The notes below the pieces were generated by a model. It did no database searches. It saw nothing but the letters and a program-made list of their open reading frames with translations, and was not told the DNA's origin. The translations under genes were made by a program, and so were the position numbers. A stretch of DNA of 31,081 bases from a virus. The stretch spans positions 1 to 31,081 of the IMG/VR virus record IMGVR_UViG_3300046171_000006; one strand, 5' to 3'. Positions 2,572 to 28,063 of this stretch are shown in pieces. Within the stretch, counting starts at the first letter, position 1. Each line of letters begins with the position of its first letter.

Positions 2572-2590
2572 AATACTCGAATCTCATAGT

Positions 2591-2634
2591 GGTTTGGGTT
2601 GGTTGTATTAGAAATACAAACCAAACCAACCAAC
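2591..2634. repeat. Imperfect inverted repeat (hairpin)
   Basis: TTGTAT at 2603-2608 and ATACAA at 2614-2619 pair perfectly around a 5-nt loop. After a one-base bulge the pairing continues between the GGTTTGGGTTGG arm and the ACCAAACCAACC arm. The arms carry the same AAACC/GGTTT words as the adjacent 11-bp repeats, so alternative pairing with the repeats is also possible. The region is non-coding. Confidence 0.55.
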
Positions 2635-2657
2635 TTTTTGATGATTTTGCTAAAAAA

Positions 2658-2701
2658 CCAAACCAAAACCAAACCTAAACCAAACCTAAACCAAACCATA
2701 T
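2658..2701. repeat. Four tandem 11-bp direct repeats (iteron-like)
   Basis: Four contiguous 11-bp units start at 2658, 2669, 2680 and 2691: CCAAACCAAAA, CCAAACCTAAA, CCAAACCTAAA and CCAAACCATAT (consensus CCAAACCWAAA). The period is about one helical turn, so the same face of the DNA repeats, as in iterons bound by replication initiators. The array abuts the stop codon of the primase-helicase gene. An origin or regulator-binding role is inference. Confidence 0.75.
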
Positions 2702-5927: not shown

Positions 5928-6084
5928 TAAAATCAGTCCTTACTACCTTGCCACTCATATAAGTTATTTCCCTGTAATGCTTACCAGCACCTTTTTGAAA
6001 ATAATATGTTTTGATTTGCTTATCTAGTTTTTCTTGTTCTAGTTCTTTTCTACGCTTCTCTACTGCTGCACTATTTTGACCCAT
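5920..6084 (-). CDS. 54-aa basic protein, unknown
   Basis: The product is MGQNSAAVEKRRKELEQEKL followed by DKQIKTYYFQKGAGKHYREITYMSGK-type sequence. The first half is a charged helix; the second half looks like a beta-hairpin. A strong SD, AAGGAG, lies 7 nt before the ATG at 6084. It overlaps the upstream RHH gene by 14 bp and the downstream TM gene by 8 bp. No domain was recognised. Confidence 0.6.
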   Translation of the reverse strand: MGQNSAAVEKRRKELEQEKLDKQIKTYYFQKGAGKHYREITYMSGKVVRTDFNA

Positions 6085-6232
6085 GATTATTCTCCTTATA
6101 AGAAACCATGCCTAGCTTCAGCAAAAGCTGAGTAGCAGATTCGATATTCATATTATTTGTGATTGCAAACACCTTGATATCCTTATGTAATTCTTCAGGA
6201 ATCCAAAGTGCCTTTTTTGTTTTTTCGTCCAT
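6071..6232 (-). CDS. Ribbon-helix-helix-like small protein
   Basis: The 53-aa product starts MDEKTKKALWIPEELHKDIK and continues VFAITNNMNIESATQLLLKLGM. A short beta strand (KALWIP), helix A (EELHKDIKVFAITNN) and helix B (NIESATQLLLKLG) match the MetJ/Arc ribbon-helix-helix layout, in which the dimer's strand pair enters the DNA major groove. GGAG lies 7 nt before the ATG at 6232. It is a candidate repressor for the phage's own promoters or a plasmid-partition-type adaptor. No target is proven. The 18-bp palindrome at 8972-8989 is one candidate site. Confidence 0.65.
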   Translation of the reverse strand: MDEKTKKALWIPEELHKDIKVFAITNNMNIESATQLLLKLGMVSYKENNHGSK

Positions 6233-7290: not shown

Positions 7291-8121
7291 CTATAAAACC
7301 AAATCCACAACATTAGGACTATTGTAAATACTAAGAGGTTTACCCTTTTGATATTCTTTATAATCATTCAGGTATTGTTCCATCATAGTCCAGCCATAAT
7401 CCATTTGTTCTTTTGTGATTCTAAATACCTTAGATGCATAAGGTTGTACTTTCTCTTGAGCTATGAATAAGAAATCAGTAACTTCATATCCAGCCATCTC
7501 AACCCCTCTTCGATAATAAGCAGCTTGCATATCATAGCCATACTTCTTAACTGAATAATTAAAAGCATGAGGTTCGCAAGATATAGTAGTTTTATAATCT
7601 ATAACAACTATCTTATTATCTGAGTTAGGTTTATCTAAAGGTGGACACATTAAATCAGGTCTACATTTACATAGGACATCATCTTCATACCAATAGATAC
7701 TTGCTTCAGGTATCTTGCCTTTTGCATTTAGATAAGCATTACCCTCATATATCATATTCTCTTTCATGCCATTGATAATCTCAGCTTCATCTTCCTTTAG
7801 AACTATGAATCCTTGCTCTTCATACTCAGCTTTCTCTTCTTTATATGCTTTAGTATATGGAGAACCTGTAAGCACTCTGACTTCTTTATCAAATGCTTCT
7901 TGTCCTTCTACTAATAAAGAATGTGCTGCTGTGCCAAACTTAAGTGCTGGAGTAGATTCAGAAGTATGATTGACTGCATGAAGTTGGGATTGACCAAATC
8001 TTCTGACATAACTACTGCTGATACCTACGCTTGCATGATAGTCCTCATTAGGTAAGTCTTTATAAATAAGAGCCTGACCTTTTTGTTTAGATTCAAAGTT
8101 CTTTAGTGATTCTATTTTCAT
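7291..8121 (-). CDS. RecE-like exonuclease (PD-(D/E)XK)
   Basis: The 276-aa protein matches the C-terminal nuclease domain of exonuclease VIII (RecE) and related phage enzymes. KFGTAAHSLLVEG (His67) opens the core, followed by Glu139 in IPEASIYW, CRPDL (Arg154, Asp156), VVIDYKTT (Asp175, Lys177) and the YGYDMQAAYY helix with Gln199. These enzymes degrade one strand from double-strand ends to give 3' overhangs for annealing. GGAG lies 8 nt before the start, which overlaps the preceding stop as ATGA. No recognisable single-strand annealing protein is adjacent; the downstream 300-aa protein is the only sizeable candidate. Confidence 0.85.
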   Translation of the reverse strand: MKIESLKNFESKQKGQALIYKDLPNEDYHASVGISSSYVRRFGQSQLHAVNHTSESTPALKFGTAAHSLLVEGQEAFDKEVRVLTGSPYTKAYKEEKAEYEEQGFIVLKEDEAEIINGMKENMIYEGNAYLNAKGKIPEASIYWYEDDVLCKCRPDLMCPPLDKPNSDNKIVVIDYKTTISCEPHAFNYSVKKYGYDMQAAYYRRGVEMAGYEVTDFLFIAQEKVQPYASKVFRITKEQMDYGWTMMEQYLNDYKEYQKGKPLSIYNSPNVVDLVL

Positions 8122-8336
8122 TCTTTGTACTCCAATATTTTTTGAGCATATTTTTGTAATACTTGAAATCCAGTTACCTTTTTTTCGATGAAATTTTTAA
8201 ATCCTTTCCAGTCAATTTCATATTTTTCTCCTATAGCTTTATATGTACTAATTTTTGTAGCACCAACATCTAAGTATTCATTAACTTCATTTGTAATAAT
8301 ACTTCTAGCTTTTTTTATTTCACTTGCACTTTTCAT
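8118..8336 (-). CDS. 72-aa Lys-rich helical protein, unknown
   Basis: The product starts MKSASEIKKARSIITNEVNE and contains ISTYKAIGEKYEIDWKGFKNF, which could be a helix-turn-helix (a short helix, IGEKYEI, then a second helix). It overlaps its neighbours by 4 bp on both sides (ATGA), directly before the RecE-like gene. The DNA-binding idea rests only on helix spacing and charge. Confidence 0.6.
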   Translation of the reverse strand: MKSASEIKKARSIITNEVNEYLDVGATKISTYKAIGEKYEIDWKGFKNFIEKKVTGFQVLQKYAQKILEYKE

Positions 8337-8509
8337 CTTGCTAATCCTAAAATGTATTTAACTTCATCTAGTGAATCTCTAACTTTGTATTCATCTTCAC
8401 CAACTTCAACAATAACCTCACTGGTGAACTGGTCTTTGTAAAAACCACTGATTGCTCTTGGTGGGATATTTAATTCACCACCACCTAATAAATTAAATGT
8501 TACATTCAT
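8333..8509 (-). CDS. 58-aa acidic small protein, unknown
   Basis: The ORF encodes MNVTFNLLGGGELNIPPRAI, then SGFYKDQFTSEVIVEVGEDE and a YKVRDSLDEVKYILGL end. It looks like a small beta-sheet domain with one C-terminal helix. It overlaps the upstream TM peptide (ATGA) and the downstream 72-aa gene (ATGA), so it belongs to a coupled chain. No family was recognised. Confidence 0.65.
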   Translation of the reverse strand: MNVTFNLLGGGELNIPPRAISGFYKDQFTSEVIVEVGEDEYKVRDSLDEVKYILGLAR

Positions 8510-8604
8510 TTTCTGTTATTCCTGTCGTGGATTAAAAGTGCAACACCATAAGATAGGTAAGCTACAGCAGCTAATAATATTAATGTTTGTGGATTCTCAA
8601 CCAT
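8506..8604 (-). CDS. 32-aa single-TM peptide
   Basis: The ORF encodes MVENPQTLILLAAVAYLSYG followed by VALLIHDRNNRK. One hydrophobic helix (8-25) ends in a basic tail, which predicts a cytoplasmic C terminus. A strong SD, AAGGAG, lies 7 nt before the ATG at 8604. It overlaps the 50-aa gene upstream by 8 bp. Confidence 0.6.
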   Translation of the reverse strand: MVENPQTLILLAAVAYLSYGVALLIHDRNNRK

Positions 8605-8749
8605 GTTTCTTCTCCTTAGTTAATTTAACCTTATGCCCTTGAGCAATTAATCTAGCTCTCTTACTAGCCATATAGAATAAGTCGCTAGTCTTGATAGCAA
8701 CCACCCAGCCTAAGCTAGGTAGTTGAACTTGTAGTGTGTATCTAGTCAT
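8597..8749 (-). CDS. 50-aa basic small protein, unknown
   Basis: The ORF encodes MTRYTLQVQLPSLGWVVAIK, then TSDLFYMASKRARLIAQGHK and a Lys-rich end. The layout is two strands, then a helix with SKRARLIAQG, like many phage proteins of about 50 residues. AAGGGG lies 5 nt before the ATG at 8749. No family was recognised. Confidence 0.6.
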   Translation of the reverse strand: MTRYTLQVQLPSLGWVVAIKTSDLFYMASKRARLIAQGHKVKLTKEKKHG

Positions 8750-8758
8750 TATTTCCCC

Positions 8759-8917
8759 TTATTTAGATTGTTGTAATACAAATTGCACTGCATCTTTTTT
8801 ATAATCAAAATGCCCATAATCCACATAATATGGATAACCCTTAGTGTCATACTTTAAAACTACAACCCACTTTTTTGTGAATGGGTTTTTTAAGATATTC
8901 CAAGATTTGTTTGTCAT
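8759..8917 (-). CDS. 52-aa small protein, first gene after the promoter
   Basis: The product starts MTNKSWNILKNPFTKKWVVV and is rich in Lys, Tyr and Trp. The ATG at 8917 has AAGGAG 9 nt upstream; an in-frame ATG at 8947 lies at the predicted transcription start and has no SD, so the shorter form is preferred. It is the first gene downstream of the promoter at 8955-8982. The pattern (W.I...P...KW.V.L..D..GYP.Y) resembles the neighbouring 50-aa protein in layout but not clearly in sequence. Function unknown. Confidence 0.65.
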   Translation of the reverse strand: MTNKSWNILKNPFTKKWVVVLKYDTKGYPYYVDYGHFDYKKDAVQFVLQQSK

Positions 8918-8954
8918 GTTATTTAACTCCTTATTTTTAATTAACATACTACCT

Positions 8955-8982
8955 ATTATATATAAAAATATATAAATGTAAA
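8955..8982 (-). promoter_or_regulatory. Sigma70-type promoter
   Basis: On the minus strand, TTTACA (8982-8977, five of six consensus bases) and a perfect TATAAT (8960-8955) are 16 bp apart. Transcription would start near 8948, just before the SD of the 52-aa gene. It is the clearest promoter in the window and marks the head of the replication and recombination region. Confidence 0.75.
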
Positions 8983-8989
8983 CATTTAT
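8972..8989. promoter_or_regulatory. Palindromic operator candidate over the -35 box
   Basis: ATAAATGTAAACATTTAT is a perfect 8-bp inverted repeat with a 2-bp centre, and the -35 hexamer lies inside it. A dimeric repressor bound here would block RNA polymerase. Low sequence complexity (AT-rich) makes chance symmetry possible. The same half-site, ATAAATGT, also occurs at 28692-28699. Confidence 0.55.
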
Positions 8990-8999
8990 TTAAAAATAT

Positions 9000-9028
9000 T
9001 TTAATTTATTTTTAGGTGCTAAATTAAA
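9000..9028 (-). terminator. AT-rich terminator-like hairpin after the late genes
   Basis: In RNA sense, TTTAATTTA (9028-9020) and TAAATTAAA (9008-9000) form a perfect 9-bp stem around an 11-nt loop, followed by ATATTTTT. The stem has no GC pairs, so it is weak, and it overlaps the stop codon of the nuclease gene. Its place between the late genes and the promoter at 8955-8982 supports a unit boundary. Confidence 0.35.
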
Positions 9029-9465
9029 GGATTTAGAACTGGTACTGAGCTTAGATTGTCTAGTGTTTCTTTTAGAGAATCTAATTCCATAGATTCAGTG
9101 ATAGCTTTCTTATCAAAAGTAAAATAGTTTTGTGATGATGTATTAGCTTTGAACATGATTCGCTTTTTATCTTCATCAAAAAATACAAAAGCTAGAATAT
9201 CGCAAGTATAGTGTTTATAAGTCTCAGACATTGACCTTGAGTTTTCAGCAGCAAAGATAAACTTCTTTTCTTTAGTAGCTCTTCTGCTTTTTACTTGCAC
9301 TGTATATTTAGCTGAACCAAATTCAACCATTAAATCAGCAGGATGTTTTTCTTGAGTTGGGTAACAAAAGTCAGCGTATTCAAGCAAGAAGGTTTGAACT
9401 AATGATTCGCCTAATGCACCAAGTCTTGAGTTAGCTTGATGTTGGTCTGATGTTTTTCTTGGCAC
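9019..9465 (-). CDS. PD-(D/E)XK-type nuclease (148 aa)
   Basis: The layout is Glu20 in GALGESLVQTFL, Asp44 in HPADLMVEF, and Gln57-Val-Lys59 in YTVQVKSRR, the E..D..QxK variant of the fold seen in small phage and group I-intron-type endonucleases. The start is GTG at 9465, inside the last 35 bp of the lysozyme gene, with no SD; coupling to lysozyme translation is likely. The next in-frame ATG would remove the essential first helix. It closes the late unit, an odd place for a nuclease; it might act on host or superinfecting DNA or on packaging. Confidence 0.65.
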   Translation of the reverse strand: MPRKTSDQHQANSRLGALGESLVQTFLLEYADFCYPTQEKHPADLMVEFGSAKYTVQVKSRRATKEKKFIFAAENSRSMSETYKHYTCDILAFVFFDEDKKRIMFKANTSSQNYFTFDKKAITESMELDSLKETLDNLSSVPVLNPLI

Positions 9466-10541: not shown

Positions 10542-10742
10542 TTAGATTAAACCTCTAACGATAATAGTAATTAAGGATGCAACTATTGTGGTAAGACCGC
10601 CTAATAACCAAAGTTTCATACTATTTATTGATGCTTGTAAATCATCAGTTTTTCTATAAATAGTTTTCCATCTTTCTTCGCACATTTTTTCATGAACTCT
10701 TAAATCTGAATGTACGTCATTAGCGGTCTTTCTAGCTGGCAT
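10542..10742 (-). CDS. Small C-terminal-TM protein, XhlA-like layout
   Basis: The 66-aa product has a charged helix (LRVHEKMCEERWKTIYRKTDDL) and one C-terminal TM (44-64, LWLLGGLTTIVASLITII). This layout is that of XhlA-type lysis accessory proteins and small marine-phage holins. GAGGA lies 7 nt before the ATG, and the start overlaps the preceding stop as TAATG. A role in lysis is inferred from layout and place. Confidence 0.6.
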   Translation of the reverse strand: MPARKTANDVHSDLRVHEKMCEERWKTIYRKTDDLQASINSMKLWLLGGLTTIVASLITIIVRGLI

Positions 10743-10999
10743 TATTCTTCCTCTACTACCTCGACTTCTTCAGGATTGATAGCTCTATCAAATGATTCAA
10801 TCACTAAGTTTTTATATTCATTAGTGATGACATAATCATCATAAGCATCTTGAAGTCTAGCTAGTTTTTTCCCAGCAACATTTAGTTTAGCAGCTAAAGC
10901 CATTTGCTCTTCATTTAAATCAGAAGCTCTGTACTCTGTGCCATTATATGTAATTATTACTGGTTCTTGGTTTTCCATCTTATTATCTTCTTTACTCAT
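10742..10999 (-). CDS. 85-aa acidic protein, unknown
   Basis: The product starts MSKEDNKMENQEPVIITYNG. A small beta unit (PVIITYNGTEYRASDLN) is followed by a coiled coil (EEQMALAAKLNVAGKKLARLQDAYDDY) and an acidic tail. This layout, 'short beta hairpin with dLn.eq, then long helix', is common in small phage proteins next to fibre and lysis genes. AGGAG lies 6 nt before the ATG at 10999. It may assist fibre or tail assembly. A lone TATAAT at 11030-11035 lies upstream. Confidence 0.65.
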   Translation of the reverse strand: MSKEDNKMENQEPVIITYNGTEYRASDLNEEQMALAAKLNVAGKKLARLQDAYDDYVITNEYKNLVIESFDRAINPEEVEVVEEE

Positions 11000-11037
11000 T
11001 TAACTCTCCTATAAGTTTATTTTAATTAAATTATATA

Positions 11038-24006: not shown

Positions 24007-25263
24007 TTAGTCGCTTGATTTACAGAAAGATACTGCATGTCTTACAGCAACATCAACAGTTTGTAGAGCAACAATTCTTACTCCACCTGAAGTTGATAAT
24101 GCATAAGGGTCAACAGTAATATCTAGTCCACCATACATACCAATCAATAAGTCTGCAAAGTTACCAAAGTAGAAATCACCACTTGTTACTTGATTACTTC
24201 TAACAACATTATAACCATTCATAGTGTTATCAGGAGAAACAACAAACTGAGCAGTACCAGTAGCCTTTTCAGTTGTTTTTAAAGTACCAAAATCAGCAGG
24301 TCTACAGATGTAAGCTAAAGAACCAGTTAAAGCATTGTCGTTAGCAACAGCACTTTCCATAGCTACTATTTCAGCCCATGTTGGGTTAGCAGCAGCAAAA
24401 GTTGTAGTGTTAATACCTGAAGTACTAGCAATACCTGTTGGTTGACCACTTGAACCTGAACCAGCTAAAGCACCTAAATCAATAGCAGTAGCTATAGATT
24501 TTGTTAGGTCGTCTCTGATTAAGTTCTCAACATCTAATGATGATTGTTGTAATAAGAGTCTTGTTGCATCAGTAAAAGCACCAATTACTTTTGGTGACAT
24601 AGTAACTGAACCTGAAGTGAATTCACTTTCAGAAGCAGCAGTACCTTCAGTTGCAATCCAACCAGCAGATGAAGCAGCAGTTTTCTTAGGAATTACAACA
24701 TTACCTTGTAATCCTCTAAGCATTGTTGCTCCAGCTTGCATTACTGAAGATTCGTTTCTTAATACATCAATAAAATCGCCACCTCTGTAATCTTCAGCTA
24801 TTAAAGTTGAATCATCAGAAGAGTTGATGTCTCTTTTGCCCCAAGTTCTTAGGACTTCAGCAGGCAACATGATACCTTGAGCATCTTTACCATACTGTCT
24901 AGCAGCTTCAGCAGAACATTCAAATTCAAATTCTGCATCTCTTTGTGCTTGTCTGTCAGATGGGTTAGCCATAGCTCTAATAGCTTTTACTAGACTGAAC
25001 TCTCTAACTTCTTCTTTAGTCATGCCAATTTCTGAAGGAGTTTCTAAAGGAGTATTGTTAGAAATGTTTTCTAATAAAATTCCTCTAAATTCTGCAACAG
25101 AGATACCATCAGCAATCGCTTTGTCAGCTAAATCTCTTTTGTTGTGCTTAACAGCTAAATCAATAATTTCTTTTGAATTTCTTTTGAATTCAGCTTTAGC
25201 ATCTTCAACAGTTTGAGCTCTAACTTCGTCAAGATTAATATCTTGTTTCTTTTCGTTTTCCAT
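24007..25263 (-). CDS. Major capsid protein, internal-start form (HK97 fold)
   Basis: The ATG at 25263 is in frame with the long ORF and has GAGGT (25275-25271) 7 nt upstream. It gives a 418-aa protein, the usual size of an HK97-type capsid precursor. The first 100 residues are charged and helical (EVRAQTVEDAKAEFKR), matching the delta scaffold domain. The shell domain has SSAGWIATEGTAASESEFTS (E-loop/P-domain), RDDLTKSIATAIDLGALAGS (spine helix region), and FADLLIGMYGGLDITVDPYA. The internal start would supply capsid subunits in excess over the protease fusion. The independent form is predicted, not shown. Confidence 0.8.
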   Translation of the reverse strand: MENEKKQDINLDEVRAQTVEDAKAEFKRNSKEIIDLAVKHNKRDLADKAIADGISVAEFRGILLENISNNTPLETPSEIGMTKEEVREFSLVKAIRAMANPSDRQAQRDAEFEFECSAEAARQYGKDAQGIMLPAEVLRTWGKRDINSSDDSTLIAEDYRGGDFIDVLRNESSVMQAGATMLRGLQGNVVIPKKTAASSAGWIATEGTAASESEFTSGSVTMSPKVIGAFTDATRLLLQQSSLDVENLIRDDLTKSIATAIDLGALAGSGSSGQPTGIASTSGINTTTFAAANPTWAEIVAMESAVANDNALTGSLAYICRPADFGTLKTTEKATGTAQFVVSPDNTMNGYNVVRSNQVTSGDFYFGNFADLLIGMYGGLDITVDPYALSTSGGVRIVALQTVDVAVRHAVSFCKSSD

Positions 25264-25941
25264 TAGTTTTACCTCAATGTTATTATTTTGTTTATCTTTA
25301 CTACGACCAACACCAACAAGTCTTGACTGGTCAGCAGGAACACTTACAGAAGAAACTTCCATAGGAGTCCATTGAGCTTTGTAGTAAGTCTCATTGTCTT
25401 GTTCATAGCGTTCTAGTTTATCGATTCGATATCCGACTGATATATTCATGCGTATACCATCTTTTACATCTTCAAATACTTCACGAGCTAAAGCAGATTT
25501 TCCAAATCTAACTACAGCAGTTGTCCTCTTTGCTGTCTCATCTAATTTGAATTCTTCAATCACACCAATTTGCTTAGTCATATCATGGTCAAGCAATAAT
25601 GGTGCTCTTCCTGAATTTATAAACTCCATGTTTATATCTCCAGCAGAATGTCCTAGCACTTCCATGCCAAAACTTCTTTCAACAGGTTCTTCAGAAGAAA
25701 CACCTACACGAACCATTCTTTTGTCCTCATCAAGATAAGAATGTTTAGATAAATCGATAGTTCTATATTTCATAGGCATATCAATTACCTTTCTTTCCTC
25801 ATCTGATTCAGACATAGAAACTTCGTCAGTCATTTCTACTTCTTCACCTTCATGTTCTACATCCTCATGCTTTGCAAATTCAACGATAACTTTATCATCA
25901 GTTTCACTCACATTAAGGATATGTCTATCTTCTTTATTCAT
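24007..25941 (-). CDS. Prohead protease-capsid form from a second internal start
   Basis: The ATG at 25941 is in frame and has GAGGAG (25953-25948) 6 nt upstream, the strongest SD of the ORF. Translation gives 644 aa: a protease domain of about 226 aa, then the capsid. The protease belongs to the HK97-type serine group: His330 in APLLLDHD and Ser379 in MNISVGYR (full-length numbering), then WTPMEVSSVSVPAD. The protease would trim the delta domain and free itself. The start position, right at the domain edge, supports a real second start. Confidence 0.65.
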   Translation of the reverse strand: MNKEDRHILNVSETDDKVIVEFAKHEDVEHEGEEVEMTDEVSMSESDEERKVIDMPMKYRTIDLSKHSYLDEDKRMVRVGVSSEEPVERSFGMEVLGHSAGDINMEFINSGRAPLLLDHDMTKQIGVIEEFKLDETAKRTTAVVRFGKSALAREVFEDVKDGIRMNISVGYRIDKLERYEQDNETYYKAQWTPMEVSSVSVPADQSRLVGVGRSKDKQNNNIEVKLMENEKKQDINLDEVRAQTVEDAKAEFKRNSKEIIDLAVKHNKRDLADKAIADGISVAEFRGILLENISNNTPLETPSEIGMTKEEVREFSLVKAIRAMANPSDRQAQRDAEFEFECSAEAARQYGKDAQGIMLPAEVLRTWGKRDINSSDDSTLIAEDYRGGDFIDVLRNESSVMQAGATMLRGLQGNVVIPKKTAASSAGWIATEGTAASESEFTSGSVTMSPKVIGAFTDATRLLLQQSSLDVENLIRDDLTKSIATAIDLGALAGSGSSGQPTGIASTSGINTTTFAAANPTWAEIVAMESAVANDNALTGSLAYICRPADFGTLKTTEKATGTAQFVVSPDNTMNGYNVVRSNQVTSGDFYFGNFADLLIGMYGGLDITVDPYALSTSGGVRIVALQTVDVAVRHAVSFCKSSD

Positions 25942-26574
25942 AGCTTTCTCCTCTTTATTTTTAGTTGATAAAGGATGTCCTTCAGGTAGTAGGTCTGTAT
26001 CATGTTTGCCACTTCTGAACTTACCATTTCTTAAAGCAAATAAGAAACTGTTAATTCTAGCAGTTGCCCATTGTTCAGGACTACTCACTGTTGGTCTGAC
26101 TGAAGCTGGATTAGTTTTATATGCACCAATCCCTCTTTCATAAACTTTTGATAGTGTTGATACGTTAGTTCTCTTTGACTTAACATCACCAACTTCTTCA
26201 TTATGTTCTTCTACTTTATTCTTAATCATCTTAAGAGCCTTACCTGATACTGCTCTTTCTTCTTCTTTTTTCATTTGATTTACTTTTGTTTCTGACCATT
26301 TATAACCAGCATCACCACCCCATAATGCCCAAGCTATTCTGCCATTAGAAGGATAGCCTTCTTCACCAGCATTAAAACCTTCTGCTTTCTTATCTACTTC
26401 ATGTCTTGAGAAGAAACTAAACATTCTTTTGATAGTTTCATCAGATAGATTTTCATCAGCTACTATTTGTCTTGCTCTTACAGCACCAACTCTAGTACCA
26501 CCACGACCAAACTCTTCTCTCCAGTCTAAACCCTTTTGAGCTTCGACTTTCATGCCTTCTGTTGGTCTAGCCAT
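24007..26574 (-). CDS. Fusion: unknown N-terminal domain, prohead protease, capsid
   Basis: The 855-aa ORF begins at ATG 26574, with GAGGA 5-6 nt upstream; an in-frame GTG at 26592 is weaker. Residues 1-211 hold two conserved-looking blocks: GLDWREEFGRGGTRVGAVRA with RHEVDKK and GRIAWALWGGDAG, then YERGIGAYKTNPASVRPT with WATARINSFL and HDTDLLPEGHP. Residues 212-437 are the protease and 438-855 the capsid. Most phages encode these separately. The start lies in an 8-bp overlap with the portal. The N-terminal blocks are known to me only as parts of phage head proteins without a settled role. Confidence 0.85.
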   Translation of the reverse strand: MARPTEGMKVEAQKGLDWREEFGRGGTRVGAVRARQIVADENLSDETIKRMFSFFSRHEVDKKAEGFNAGEEGYPSNGRIAWALWGGDAGYKWSETKVNQMKKEEERAVSGKALKMIKNKVEEHNEEVGDVKSKRTNVSTLSKVYERGIGAYKTNPASVRPTVSSPEQWATARINSFLFALRNGKFRSGKHDTDLLPEGHPLSTKNKEEKAMNKEDRHILNVSETDDKVIVEFAKHEDVEHEGEEVEMTDEVSMSESDEERKVIDMPMKYRTIDLSKHSYLDEDKRMVRVGVSSEEPVERSFGMEVLGHSAGDINMEFINSGRAPLLLDHDMTKQIGVIEEFKLDETAKRTTAVVRFGKSALAREVFEDVKDGIRMNISVGYRIDKLERYEQDNETYYKAQWTPMEVSSVSVPADQSRLVGVGRSKDKQNNNIEVKLMENEKKQDINLDEVRAQTVEDAKAEFKRNSKEIIDLAVKHNKRDLADKAIADGISVAEFRGILLENISNNTPLETPSEIGMTKEEVREFSLVKAIRAMANPSDRQAQRDAEFEFECSAEAARQYGKDAQGIMLPAEVLRTWGKRDINSSDDSTLIAEDYRGGDFIDVLRNESSVMQAGATMLRGLQGNVVIPKKTAASSAGWIATEGTAASESEFTSGSVTMSPKVIGAFTDATRLLLQQSSLDVENLIRDDLTKSIATAIDLGALAGSGSSGQPTGIASTSGINTTTFAAANPTWAEIVAMESAVANDNALTGSLAYICRPADFGTLKTTEKATGTAQFVVSPDNTMNGYNVVRSNQVTSGDFYFGNFADLLIGMYGGLDITVDPYALSTSGGVRIVALQTVDVAVRHAVSFCKSSD

Positions 26575-28063
26575 CTTCTTCCTCTTCGCCACCTGATATC
26601 TTAGGTTCTACAGGTAGTTTTTGACCAAATGGTTGATAAGCTAATTCAATATCATATTGTTTAGCTAGTTCTATTTCTTTTTGATGTTGTTCGAATAACT
26701 CTTCAGTATCTCTACCATAAGAAGCAGAAATATCAGAATAAGTAAGTGTTCCATTTTGTAAACCTATTACATTAGCTTGCATTTCTTTTAATGGGTCAAT
26801 CCAAGCAAAACTTCTTGGAATGTAATTTACTGACCTAGCAAACTTATCATATTTACCCATTGGTAAATTAATATATCCAGTTGATATAGCCATTTCTAGC
26901 CATGATTGGAATACTGGATTTACAAAATGCTCAATTACAAATTGTTGATATATTTGATACATACTTCTATCTTCTAAAGCACCCTGTCTTATTGAAGAAT
27001 AATTGACTGAAGTTAAATCATTAGATAATGAATGATAAGAAATATTTAAACCTGATGCGATACTTCTTAAAACACTAGTTGTAAAAGAATCAAAAGCAGA
27101 TGTTGGATGGGTAGGGTCAAATGCTTTAAAGTCCATACCACTTGGTAGTTGTTCAAATACACCAGCTTGAGCATTCATTGTAGGATTAAAGGTATCTTCA
27201 TATTCACCATCACCAACATAGCCATCACCATCAGGTGAAGTAAAGAAACCCATTTTAGATGCACCAACTCTTGCTGCAACTATTTCTGCTTCTAAATAAC
27301 CATTTAACATTTTCACATTAGCCATAGCTGTAGCAACCAAAGAAACACCTCTAGTTTGTTCTGCCCTAGAAGGTAGGTAAGCATGGATAATCTCATCAGC
27401 AGGCACTCTAATGTGTTGTGCTTGACTTAAATAAACTCTATCGTAGGGATGGTCTTTATATAAATGATAAGCAACTGGTCTGTCATACTTATCTACCTCA
27501 ACACCCATTTTAACTTTGTTACCAGTAGCTTTATAAACATCATTTTTATTTTCATCTAAATGGTCTGCTTCTAAAAACTGTAACTGGAAACCAAAAGGTG
27601 AATTGCTATCCTTTATTTTCCTGATTAATACTTCACCATCTCTACATAGTGATTCAACAAATATTTTCTGACAATCTAAGAATGATAGTCTGCCATTAGT
27701 TGTACAACTTCCGACTTGACCCCATTCTCTCCAAGCACGTTCAATGAGCAGGTTAGCTCCAATGTCTAAAGAACCATTATCGTTCCTAGCCTTAGAGCTA
27801 ACTCTTATGCCATGCTTACCGATAACATTAGATACCATCAGGTTTAAGTATCTAGCAATATAGCTATCGTTTCTTGCTAATTCTCTTGCTCTATCTCTTA
27901 GAATTCTTATGTTATCTTTTATTTCAGCATCAGCACTTGTAGATGTGGTAACAAAATCTGCAAACAATCTGCCAGTGTTAGCACCTGTATAGCTTCTTCT
28001 ATATGCTTGTCTTTTCTTTTTCTTAGGTTCGTTAATACCTAATATTCTGTTATACCATGCCAT
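26567..28063 (-). CDS. Portal protein (lambda gpB family)
   Basis: The 498-aa protein forms the dodecameric ring for DNA entry and exit. The order matches lambda-type portals: LARNDSYIARYLNLMVSNVI, GKHGIRVSSKA, CRDGEVLIR, LQFLEADHLD, RAEQTRGVSLVATAMANVKM, and NISYHSLSNDLTSVNYSS, the typical 'iSY..Ls.D.t..NYSs.R' motif. The C terminus ends acidic (GGEEEEDG). Its start overlaps the gpW-like stop as TAATG. Confidence 0.95.
   Translation of the reverse strand: MAWYNRILGINEPKKKKRQAYRRSYTGANTGRLFADFVTTSTSADAEIKDNIRILRDRARELARNDSYIARYLNLMVSNVIGKHGIRVSSKARNDNGSLDIGANLLIERAWREWGQVGSCTTNGRLSFLDCQKIFVESLCRDGEVLIRKIKDSNSPFGFQLQFLEADHLDENKNDVYKATGNKVKMGVEVDKYDRPVAYHLYKDHPYDRVYLSQAQHIRVPADEIIHAYLPSRAEQTRGVSLVATAMANVKMLNGYLEAEIVAARVGASKMGFFTSPDGDGYVGDGEYEDTFNPTMNAQAGVFEQLPSGMDFKAFDPTHPTSAFDSFTTSVLRSIASGLNISYHSLSNDLTSVNYSSIRQGALEDRSMYQIYQQFVIEHFVNPVFQSWLEMAISTGYINLPMGKYDKFARSVNYIPRSFAWIDPLKEMQANVIGLQNGTLTYSDISASYGRDTEELFEQHQKEIELAKQYDIELAYQPFGQKLPVEPKISGGEEEEDG

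Follow-up and report, generated by a model that had tools for sequence, protein, structure and literature searches.

The control of phage early promoters by repressors of the Arc/omega-type RHH or CI type is a known system. In T4-type phages, 'promoter early stem-loop' (PeSL) elements have been described as mobile regulatory cassettes (Arbiol 2010; Comeau 2014, as summarised in PMC4503421), and cluster K mycobacteriophages carry the SAS/ESAS sequences, of which the 13-bp SAS (GGGATAGGAGCCC) is present in many copies per genome, its promoter status being unknown (PMC3203893). At the level of translation, E. coli mRNAs that combine a 5′-AUG with a Shine–Dalgarno (SD) start are translated, and 70S ribosomes bind them at the 5′ AUG (PMC4965119).

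Here we describe an early promoter and leader in the 31,081-base virus record IMGVR_UViG_3300046171_000006, analysed over its whole length (hereafter the window), whose minus strand carries almost all of the genes. The large terminase (terL) shares 48–49% identity with those of the Roseobacter phages CRP-821/822/823/831 and CRP-406, and the modules follow the order seen in the roseophages CRP-406/CRP-821; this related terminase and shared gene order place the window phage in the CRP-822-type family. Low-GC members of this family have SAR86, SAR11 or NAC11-7 roseobacters as predicted hosts, and an integrase is absent from almost all CRP-822-type phages (PMC12629253). Blast found no isolated phage with the promoter–leader cassette described below or with the window's RHH protein. 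A search of bacterial genomes with the leader gave as its sole match a 3.9-kb contig (L204) in a Winogradskyella MAG, probably a stray viral contig, and this single contig was not counted as evidence of Winogradskyella as host. Elsewhere in the window an 861-aa ORF (24007–26592, minus strand) resembles a fusion of a prohead protease with the major capsid protein, the capsid genes of CRP-406 and CRP-821 being likewise unusually long, and GGTTTGGTTTAGG-type repeats (2572–2700, minus strand) adjoin the primase/helicase gene as a possible replication-related element.

Relatives were assembled independently of the promoter, as 80 viral loci fetched with the window's exonuclease VIII-like protein (7291–8121); 53 homologous promoters from these loci had full upstream sequence and could be scored. 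The reference genes on either side are:

7291–8121, minus strand: exonuclease VIII-like gene, used to pick relatives without promoter bias
9019–9465, minus strand: upstream gene (phrog_5018), the last lysis-end gene, flanking the cassette and conserved in 76/80 loci

The early promoter, its leader and the cargo slot

The promoter lies in a 101-nt intergenic region of 13% GC, with the following features:

8955–8960, minus strand: −10 hexamer TATAAT, with a promoter match of 10–12/12 in 53/53 homologous cassettes
8977–8982, minus strand: −35 hexamer TTTACA, with a 16-bp spacer to −10, kept in relatives
8972–8989, no strand: palindrome ATAAATGT-AA-ACATTTAT with 8-bp arms, centred on −35, a minority promoter variant
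8956–8975, no strand: second, AT-only dyad TTATATAT-AAAA-ATATATAA in the −35/−10 spacer, from the sequence
8991–9014, no strand: A/T-rich tract 5′ of −35, UP-element-like, variable in relatives

TTTACA-16-TATAAT (8982–8955, minus strand) matches the consensus at 11/12 positions and is the top-scoring site of a scan of the 6–12 kb region. An initial annotation of the sequence had it heading the replication region, and it does stand at the head of the replication/early region, directly behind the lysis-end genes. In the homologues the two hexamers are conserved at a spacing of 15–18 bp, with 10–12 of 12 positions matching the sigma70 pattern in every one of the 53, and we read the site as a host sigma70-type early promoter, predicted from its sequence to be strong. 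The AT-rich hairpin that had been thought to mark a late/early switch did not hold up: the dyad at 8991–9014 (TAAAAATA-8-TATTTTTA) has zero G-C pairs, is missing from several close relatives (L001, L003) and was not listed as terminator-like, which ruled it out as a terminator, and the stretch is better described as A/T-rich DNA preceding the −35 than as a hairpin.

Two further promoter regions were noted. A second promoter-like site in the window (TATAAT, 11030–11035, minus strand) stands before ORF 10742–10999, together with a stretch TTCTTAGTATATAATTTAATT...CTTATAGGAGAG that is conserved in relatives; the site may serve the lysis genes. The clade comprising L026–L041, L044, L057 and others has neither cassette nor cargo slot; its promoter region is different, and an inverted repeat, ATATAAATATAATTTAATATATTTATAT (11-bp arms), lies about 300 bases before the exonuclease.

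Directly after the −10 hexamer follows the leader TATGTTAATTAAAAATAAGGAGTTAAATAACATG, and behind it a small gene that we term the cargo:

8915–8948, minus strand: near-invariant leader/RBS, 32/34 positions invariant before 24 non-homologous downstream genes
8945–8947, minus strand: ATG at the predicted transcript 5′ end, about 7–8 nt after −10, in frame with the SD start
8927–8932, minus strand: Shine–Dalgarno AAGGAG, from the sequence and relatives
8759–8917, minus strand: cargo ORF, 52 aa from the SD start and 62 aa from the 5′ ATG
8597–8749, minus strand: anchor gene (MTRYTLQVQLPS...), next after slot 1 in most relatives

Amongst the exonuclease-selected loci, 54 cassettes precede 24 non-homologous cargo clusters. 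The mean majority frequency is 0.985 over leader positions −31 to +2 and only 0.51 and 0.59 on the downstream and upstream sides, respectively, and the leader is identical to that of the window at 32/34 positions where third-codon-position identity of the exonuclease gene to the window is 0.47–0.52. Presence in these loci is bimodal, with either 0–2 mismatches or no leader at all, the exception being two extra sites with six mismatches. A wider, pattern-selected set together with other loci brings the total to at least 112 distinct leader occurrences before at least 52 unrelated small-gene clusters; the selecting pattern itself accounts for part of the invariance in that wider set, and the claim of invariance is based on the exonuclease-selected set. 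Such conservation exceeds the usual need of an RBS, and an unrecognised function of the leader is possible. An RNA hairpin in the leader (ATGTTA...TAACAT) was tried and rejected as weak and no better than shuffles (z −1.1, +0.6, 0.0 and −1.8).

Neither a family match nor a homologue among the other cargo genes was found for the cargo ORF of the window, and comparison of the cargo genes with Pfam and PHROGs recognised almost none of them. The region behind the cassette is an alternation of conserved anchor genes and variable slots. The anchors in window positions 8333–8917 and in the early regions of L001–L080 are MTRYTLQVQLPS, MNLMCNTKHG, MIESPQTL and MNVTFN, alternating with small-gene slots, and anchors and slots each stand behind their own conserved RBS context. 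One or two cassettes are present in 16/18 whole related records; the window has one, and L004, L008, L054 and others have two, approximately 800–1050 bp apart. In L240, two copies lie about 9.7 kb apart in opposite orientation on one contig.

Two possible translation starts behind one promoter

The SD-led ATG (8917–8915, minus strand) is 30 nt downstream of the 5′ ATG and in the same frame. Throughout the family the AUG stands 5–7 nt after −10, placing it at the predicted 5′ end, and the SD start 21–32 nt further on. Distinct leaders with a 5′ ATG number 37, and in 26 of these the 5′ ATG and the SD start share one frame with no stop between them; the scan was restricted to ORFs of at least 25–30 aa, a filter biased towards in-frame cases in which translation of the real gene begins at the 5′ ATG. 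When distinct SD geometries are counted instead, 8/13 are in frame, with indels on the two sides of the SD compensating one another, a signal that reaches only P 0.035 across geometries from cassettes that share ancestry and are not independent. In all five out-of-frame geometries the short frame ends no more than 5 nt before, or overlapping, the main ATG, and the few frame counterexamples look unrelated to the cassette family. In L273 a member of the p8597 anchor family follows the cassette directly, and its N-terminus falls close to the usual position, in support of the SD ATG being a true start. A different phage group (L310, L350, L375) also has promoter-led leaders with a 5′ ATG that shares the frame of an SD start (ATGTTAACAAAGGAGCGAACG, ATGAACAAGCAAGGAGCGACT), alongside others without.

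We consider it probable that the locus is a plug-in early-expression cassette, in which a promoter and a 34-nt leader with a 5′-AUG plus SD dual start sit beside a cargo slot. RNA polymerase would start at about 8948, so that the 5′ end of the transcript would fall at or within 1–2 nt of the AUG (8947–8945), and ribosomes would load both at this 5′-terminal AUG, in leaderless mode, and at the SD start (AAGGAG, ATG 8917–8915). The two starts would be read in one frame, and in other variants the short frame would stop at the main ATG; dual or coupled initiation at the 5′ AUG and the SD start is the reading that we favour. Cargo genes would be exchanged behind an unchanged promoter and leader, we infer by recombination at the leader. 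Comparison between loci provides the conservation of promoter and leader, the unrelated cargo, the two copies in some genomes and the frame relation on which this reading draws, whilst start site, promoter strength, dual initiation and the route of exchange are predicted. Counting against it is the one clade (L026–L041 and others) without the cassette and with a different promoter.

Operators, recombination and chance as alternatives

The regulator proposed by the initial annotation is encoded on the far side of the exonuclease gene:

6071–6232, minus strand: RHH-like protein, with profile and structure matches, in 75/80 loci

Its description as a small RHH protein is moderately well borne out. 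Sequence profiles relate it to known RHH families and structures, with Pfam Omega_Repress matching 18/38 homologues (best 3e-4) and PDB matches to RHH regulators (2kel, 1e-4), all of these individually weak. The structural model contains two helices (13–25 and 30–40), the strand not being formed in the monomer, and Foldseek returned no match below E 0.18, RHH proteins being among the top matches of a model that is weak for fold matching.

According to the same annotation, a perfect 18-bp palindrome over the −35 could be bound by this RHH protein or an HTH protein (952–1110); the corresponding model is a dimeric repressor that blocks RNA polymerase. The palindrome does cover the −35, with 8-bp arms exactly over it, but it is not perfect, since the plus strand of 8972–8989 (ATAAATGTAAACATTTAT) is symmetric at 16/18 positions and the central AA is not self-complementary. 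Palindromes with arms of at least 8 and a spacer of 0–2 occur once in the window and 2.5 times on average (sd 1.5) in 30 dinucleotide shuffles; for the 101-nt intergenic region the probability of one or more is 0.14, or 0.017 where a G-C pair is required, and three dyads with spacers of up to 8 are found there (P 0.007). The palindrome alone is not unusual, and its coincidence with the promoter is mildly unusual. In favour of a repressor, variants with 7–8 of 8 pairs recur, the arms are kept around two independent centres, TT and AT (L054b, ATAAATGT-AT-ACATTTAT), and the RHH-like protein is conserved in 75/80 loci. Arm pairing across the 53 homologous promoters, however, is 8/8 in five, 7/8 in 12 and at most 6/8 in 36, so that the symmetry of the site is not conserved along with the RHH protein, the one candidate regulator encoded inside the flanks of these loci, an outcome that comes close to what the annotation itself had named as refuting it. 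Five phages whose RHH protein is identical to that of the window over 53/53 residues (L003, L006, L023, L049, L061) have only 5–6/8 pairs in their promoters, and the palindrome therefore cannot be a required RHH operator. Nor would a lysogenic repressor circuit be expected, since almost all CRP-822-type phages are without an integrase (PMC12629253). Shuffles and relatives together ruled out the palindrome as a significant feature by itself, and we read it as variant-specific, incidental to a minority variant and apart from the conserved functional portion; repressor control through it is improbable. The lesson is to check a promoter palindrome in relatives before naming an operator. Less probable still is that the promoter itself is a chance match in A/T-rich DNA. 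The surrounding 13% GC would favour such matches, and promoter-like sites in the 6–12 kb region are not in excess over shuffles (17 found, 31 expected), but this one scores 11/12, its 28-nt core has no other close match (≤3 mismatches) in the window and none in shuffles, and it is kept in 53/53 homologous cassettes.

Two other readings, both of which we regard as unlikely though less so than a repressor on the palindrome, bear on the spacer and on the leader. Where the window has the 8956–8975 dyad, other promoter variants have ACAT-N12-ATGY or other 20-bp dyads, and a regulator, possibly the RHH protein, might read this spacer dyad or ACATTTAT half-sites in varying combinations. A gap of 12 between ACAT and ATGY occurs in 33/94 unique promoters and in 7/22 promoter types defined at 80% identity, compared with an expectation of 0.09 for shuffled spacers, any other gap occurring in at most four. 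The 20-bp length of the dyad is constant despite a 2-bp difference in its offset to −10, and other types have perfect 18–20-bp spacer dyads, such as CATAAATATATATTTATG and ATACTAATATATATTAGTAT. The GTATACAATTATAT promoter type goes with a divergent RHH protein (KAVWVKPETHK...; L125, L129, L150, L217, L228, L259, L265, L270, L279), a pairing that possibly reflects promoter–regulator co-variation or plain phylogeny. Against a spacer-centred operator, the promoter types share common descent; promoter constraint may contribute as well, with ACAT overlapping the −35 consensus and ATGT adjoining the −10; and the right half-site is missing from the window and several types. The window would then hold a reduced version, with left and centre half-sites; an operator of this kind is possible and is compatible with the cassette reading that we prefer. 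The leader, for its part, might be a plain 5′ UTR with an incidental +1 ATG, its identity kept as a homologous-recombination junction for cargo exchange. Homology does end abruptly at the ATG before unrelated genes, a frameshifted leader exists (the second copy of L023), and gene exchange at conserved regulatory junctions has been reported for T4-type phages (PMC4503421; PMC4177764). An incidental ATG fits less well with its position 5–7 nt after −10 throughout the family, with the compensating indels on either side of the SD that keep the frame and with the short frames of the out-of-frame variants, which end no more than 5 nt from the main start; moreover, exchange would have to be continual to keep distant leaders identical.

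Comparison with known regulatory cassettes

We put forward, tentatively, the broader proposal of an uncultured marine phage lineage with a standardised promoter and 34-nt leader cassette, two in-frame starts and unrelated small early genes behind it. If this is true, each cargo protein could be translated in two start modes from a single transcript, beginning in the first minutes of infection. The invariant leader is a sequence tag that retrieves the gene opening the early region of these marine phages, in at least 52 unrelated families, nearly all with no known family match. Genes in the slot are good candidates for roles in host take-over or anti-defence, and the cassette provides a natural, repeated test of dual leaderless and SD initiation in streamlined marine bacteria, the predicted hosts.

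Like early promoters under RHH or CI-type repressors, the locus has a strong sigma70-type promoter with a dyad, in a genome that also encodes an RHH-like protein; it differs in that the −35 dyad is not conserved with the RHH protein, in a lineage that is nearly integrase-free. We class the cassette as a variant of known phage regulatory cassettes, nearest in kind to PeSL and SAS/ESAS. As in a mobile cassette, the same regulatory sequence stands before non-homologous genes (24 clusters in the unbiased set, at least 52 in all), with several copies per genome in L004, L008, L054 and others. As far as the summary of PeSL in PMC4503421 goes, both systems repeat an early host-type promoter motif before small genes of unknown function and are linked to gene shuffling. 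PeSL has a conserved terminator stem-loop and many copies per genome, whereas here the conserved unit is the promoter with a 34-nt leader/RBS, in 1–2 copies per genome, and the phages have genomes of approximately 31–35 kb and are unrelated to T4. No terminator-like site was found at the cassette when an attached intrinsic terminator stem-loop was looked for, and the upstream AT dyad is not conserved.

SAS/ESAS likewise places a short, conserved, RBS-containing sequence right before the starts of genes from different families, with an upstream inverted repeat at about half of the sites (PMC3203893). Unlike SAS, the cassette is longer, is tied to a clear sigma70 promoter and has a second AUG, predicted to be 5′-terminal. 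In this last respect it would resemble the E. coli 5′-uAUG mRNAs, which carry an AUG at the transcript 5′ end followed, on one mRNA, by an ordinary SD start, and among which some uORFs stop at the main start or close to it (PMC4965119). Those mRNAs come from scattered individual host genes, the tested ones being out of frame by choice (PMC4965119), whereas the phage leader is one standardised sequence, mostly in frame and common to many unrelated genes.
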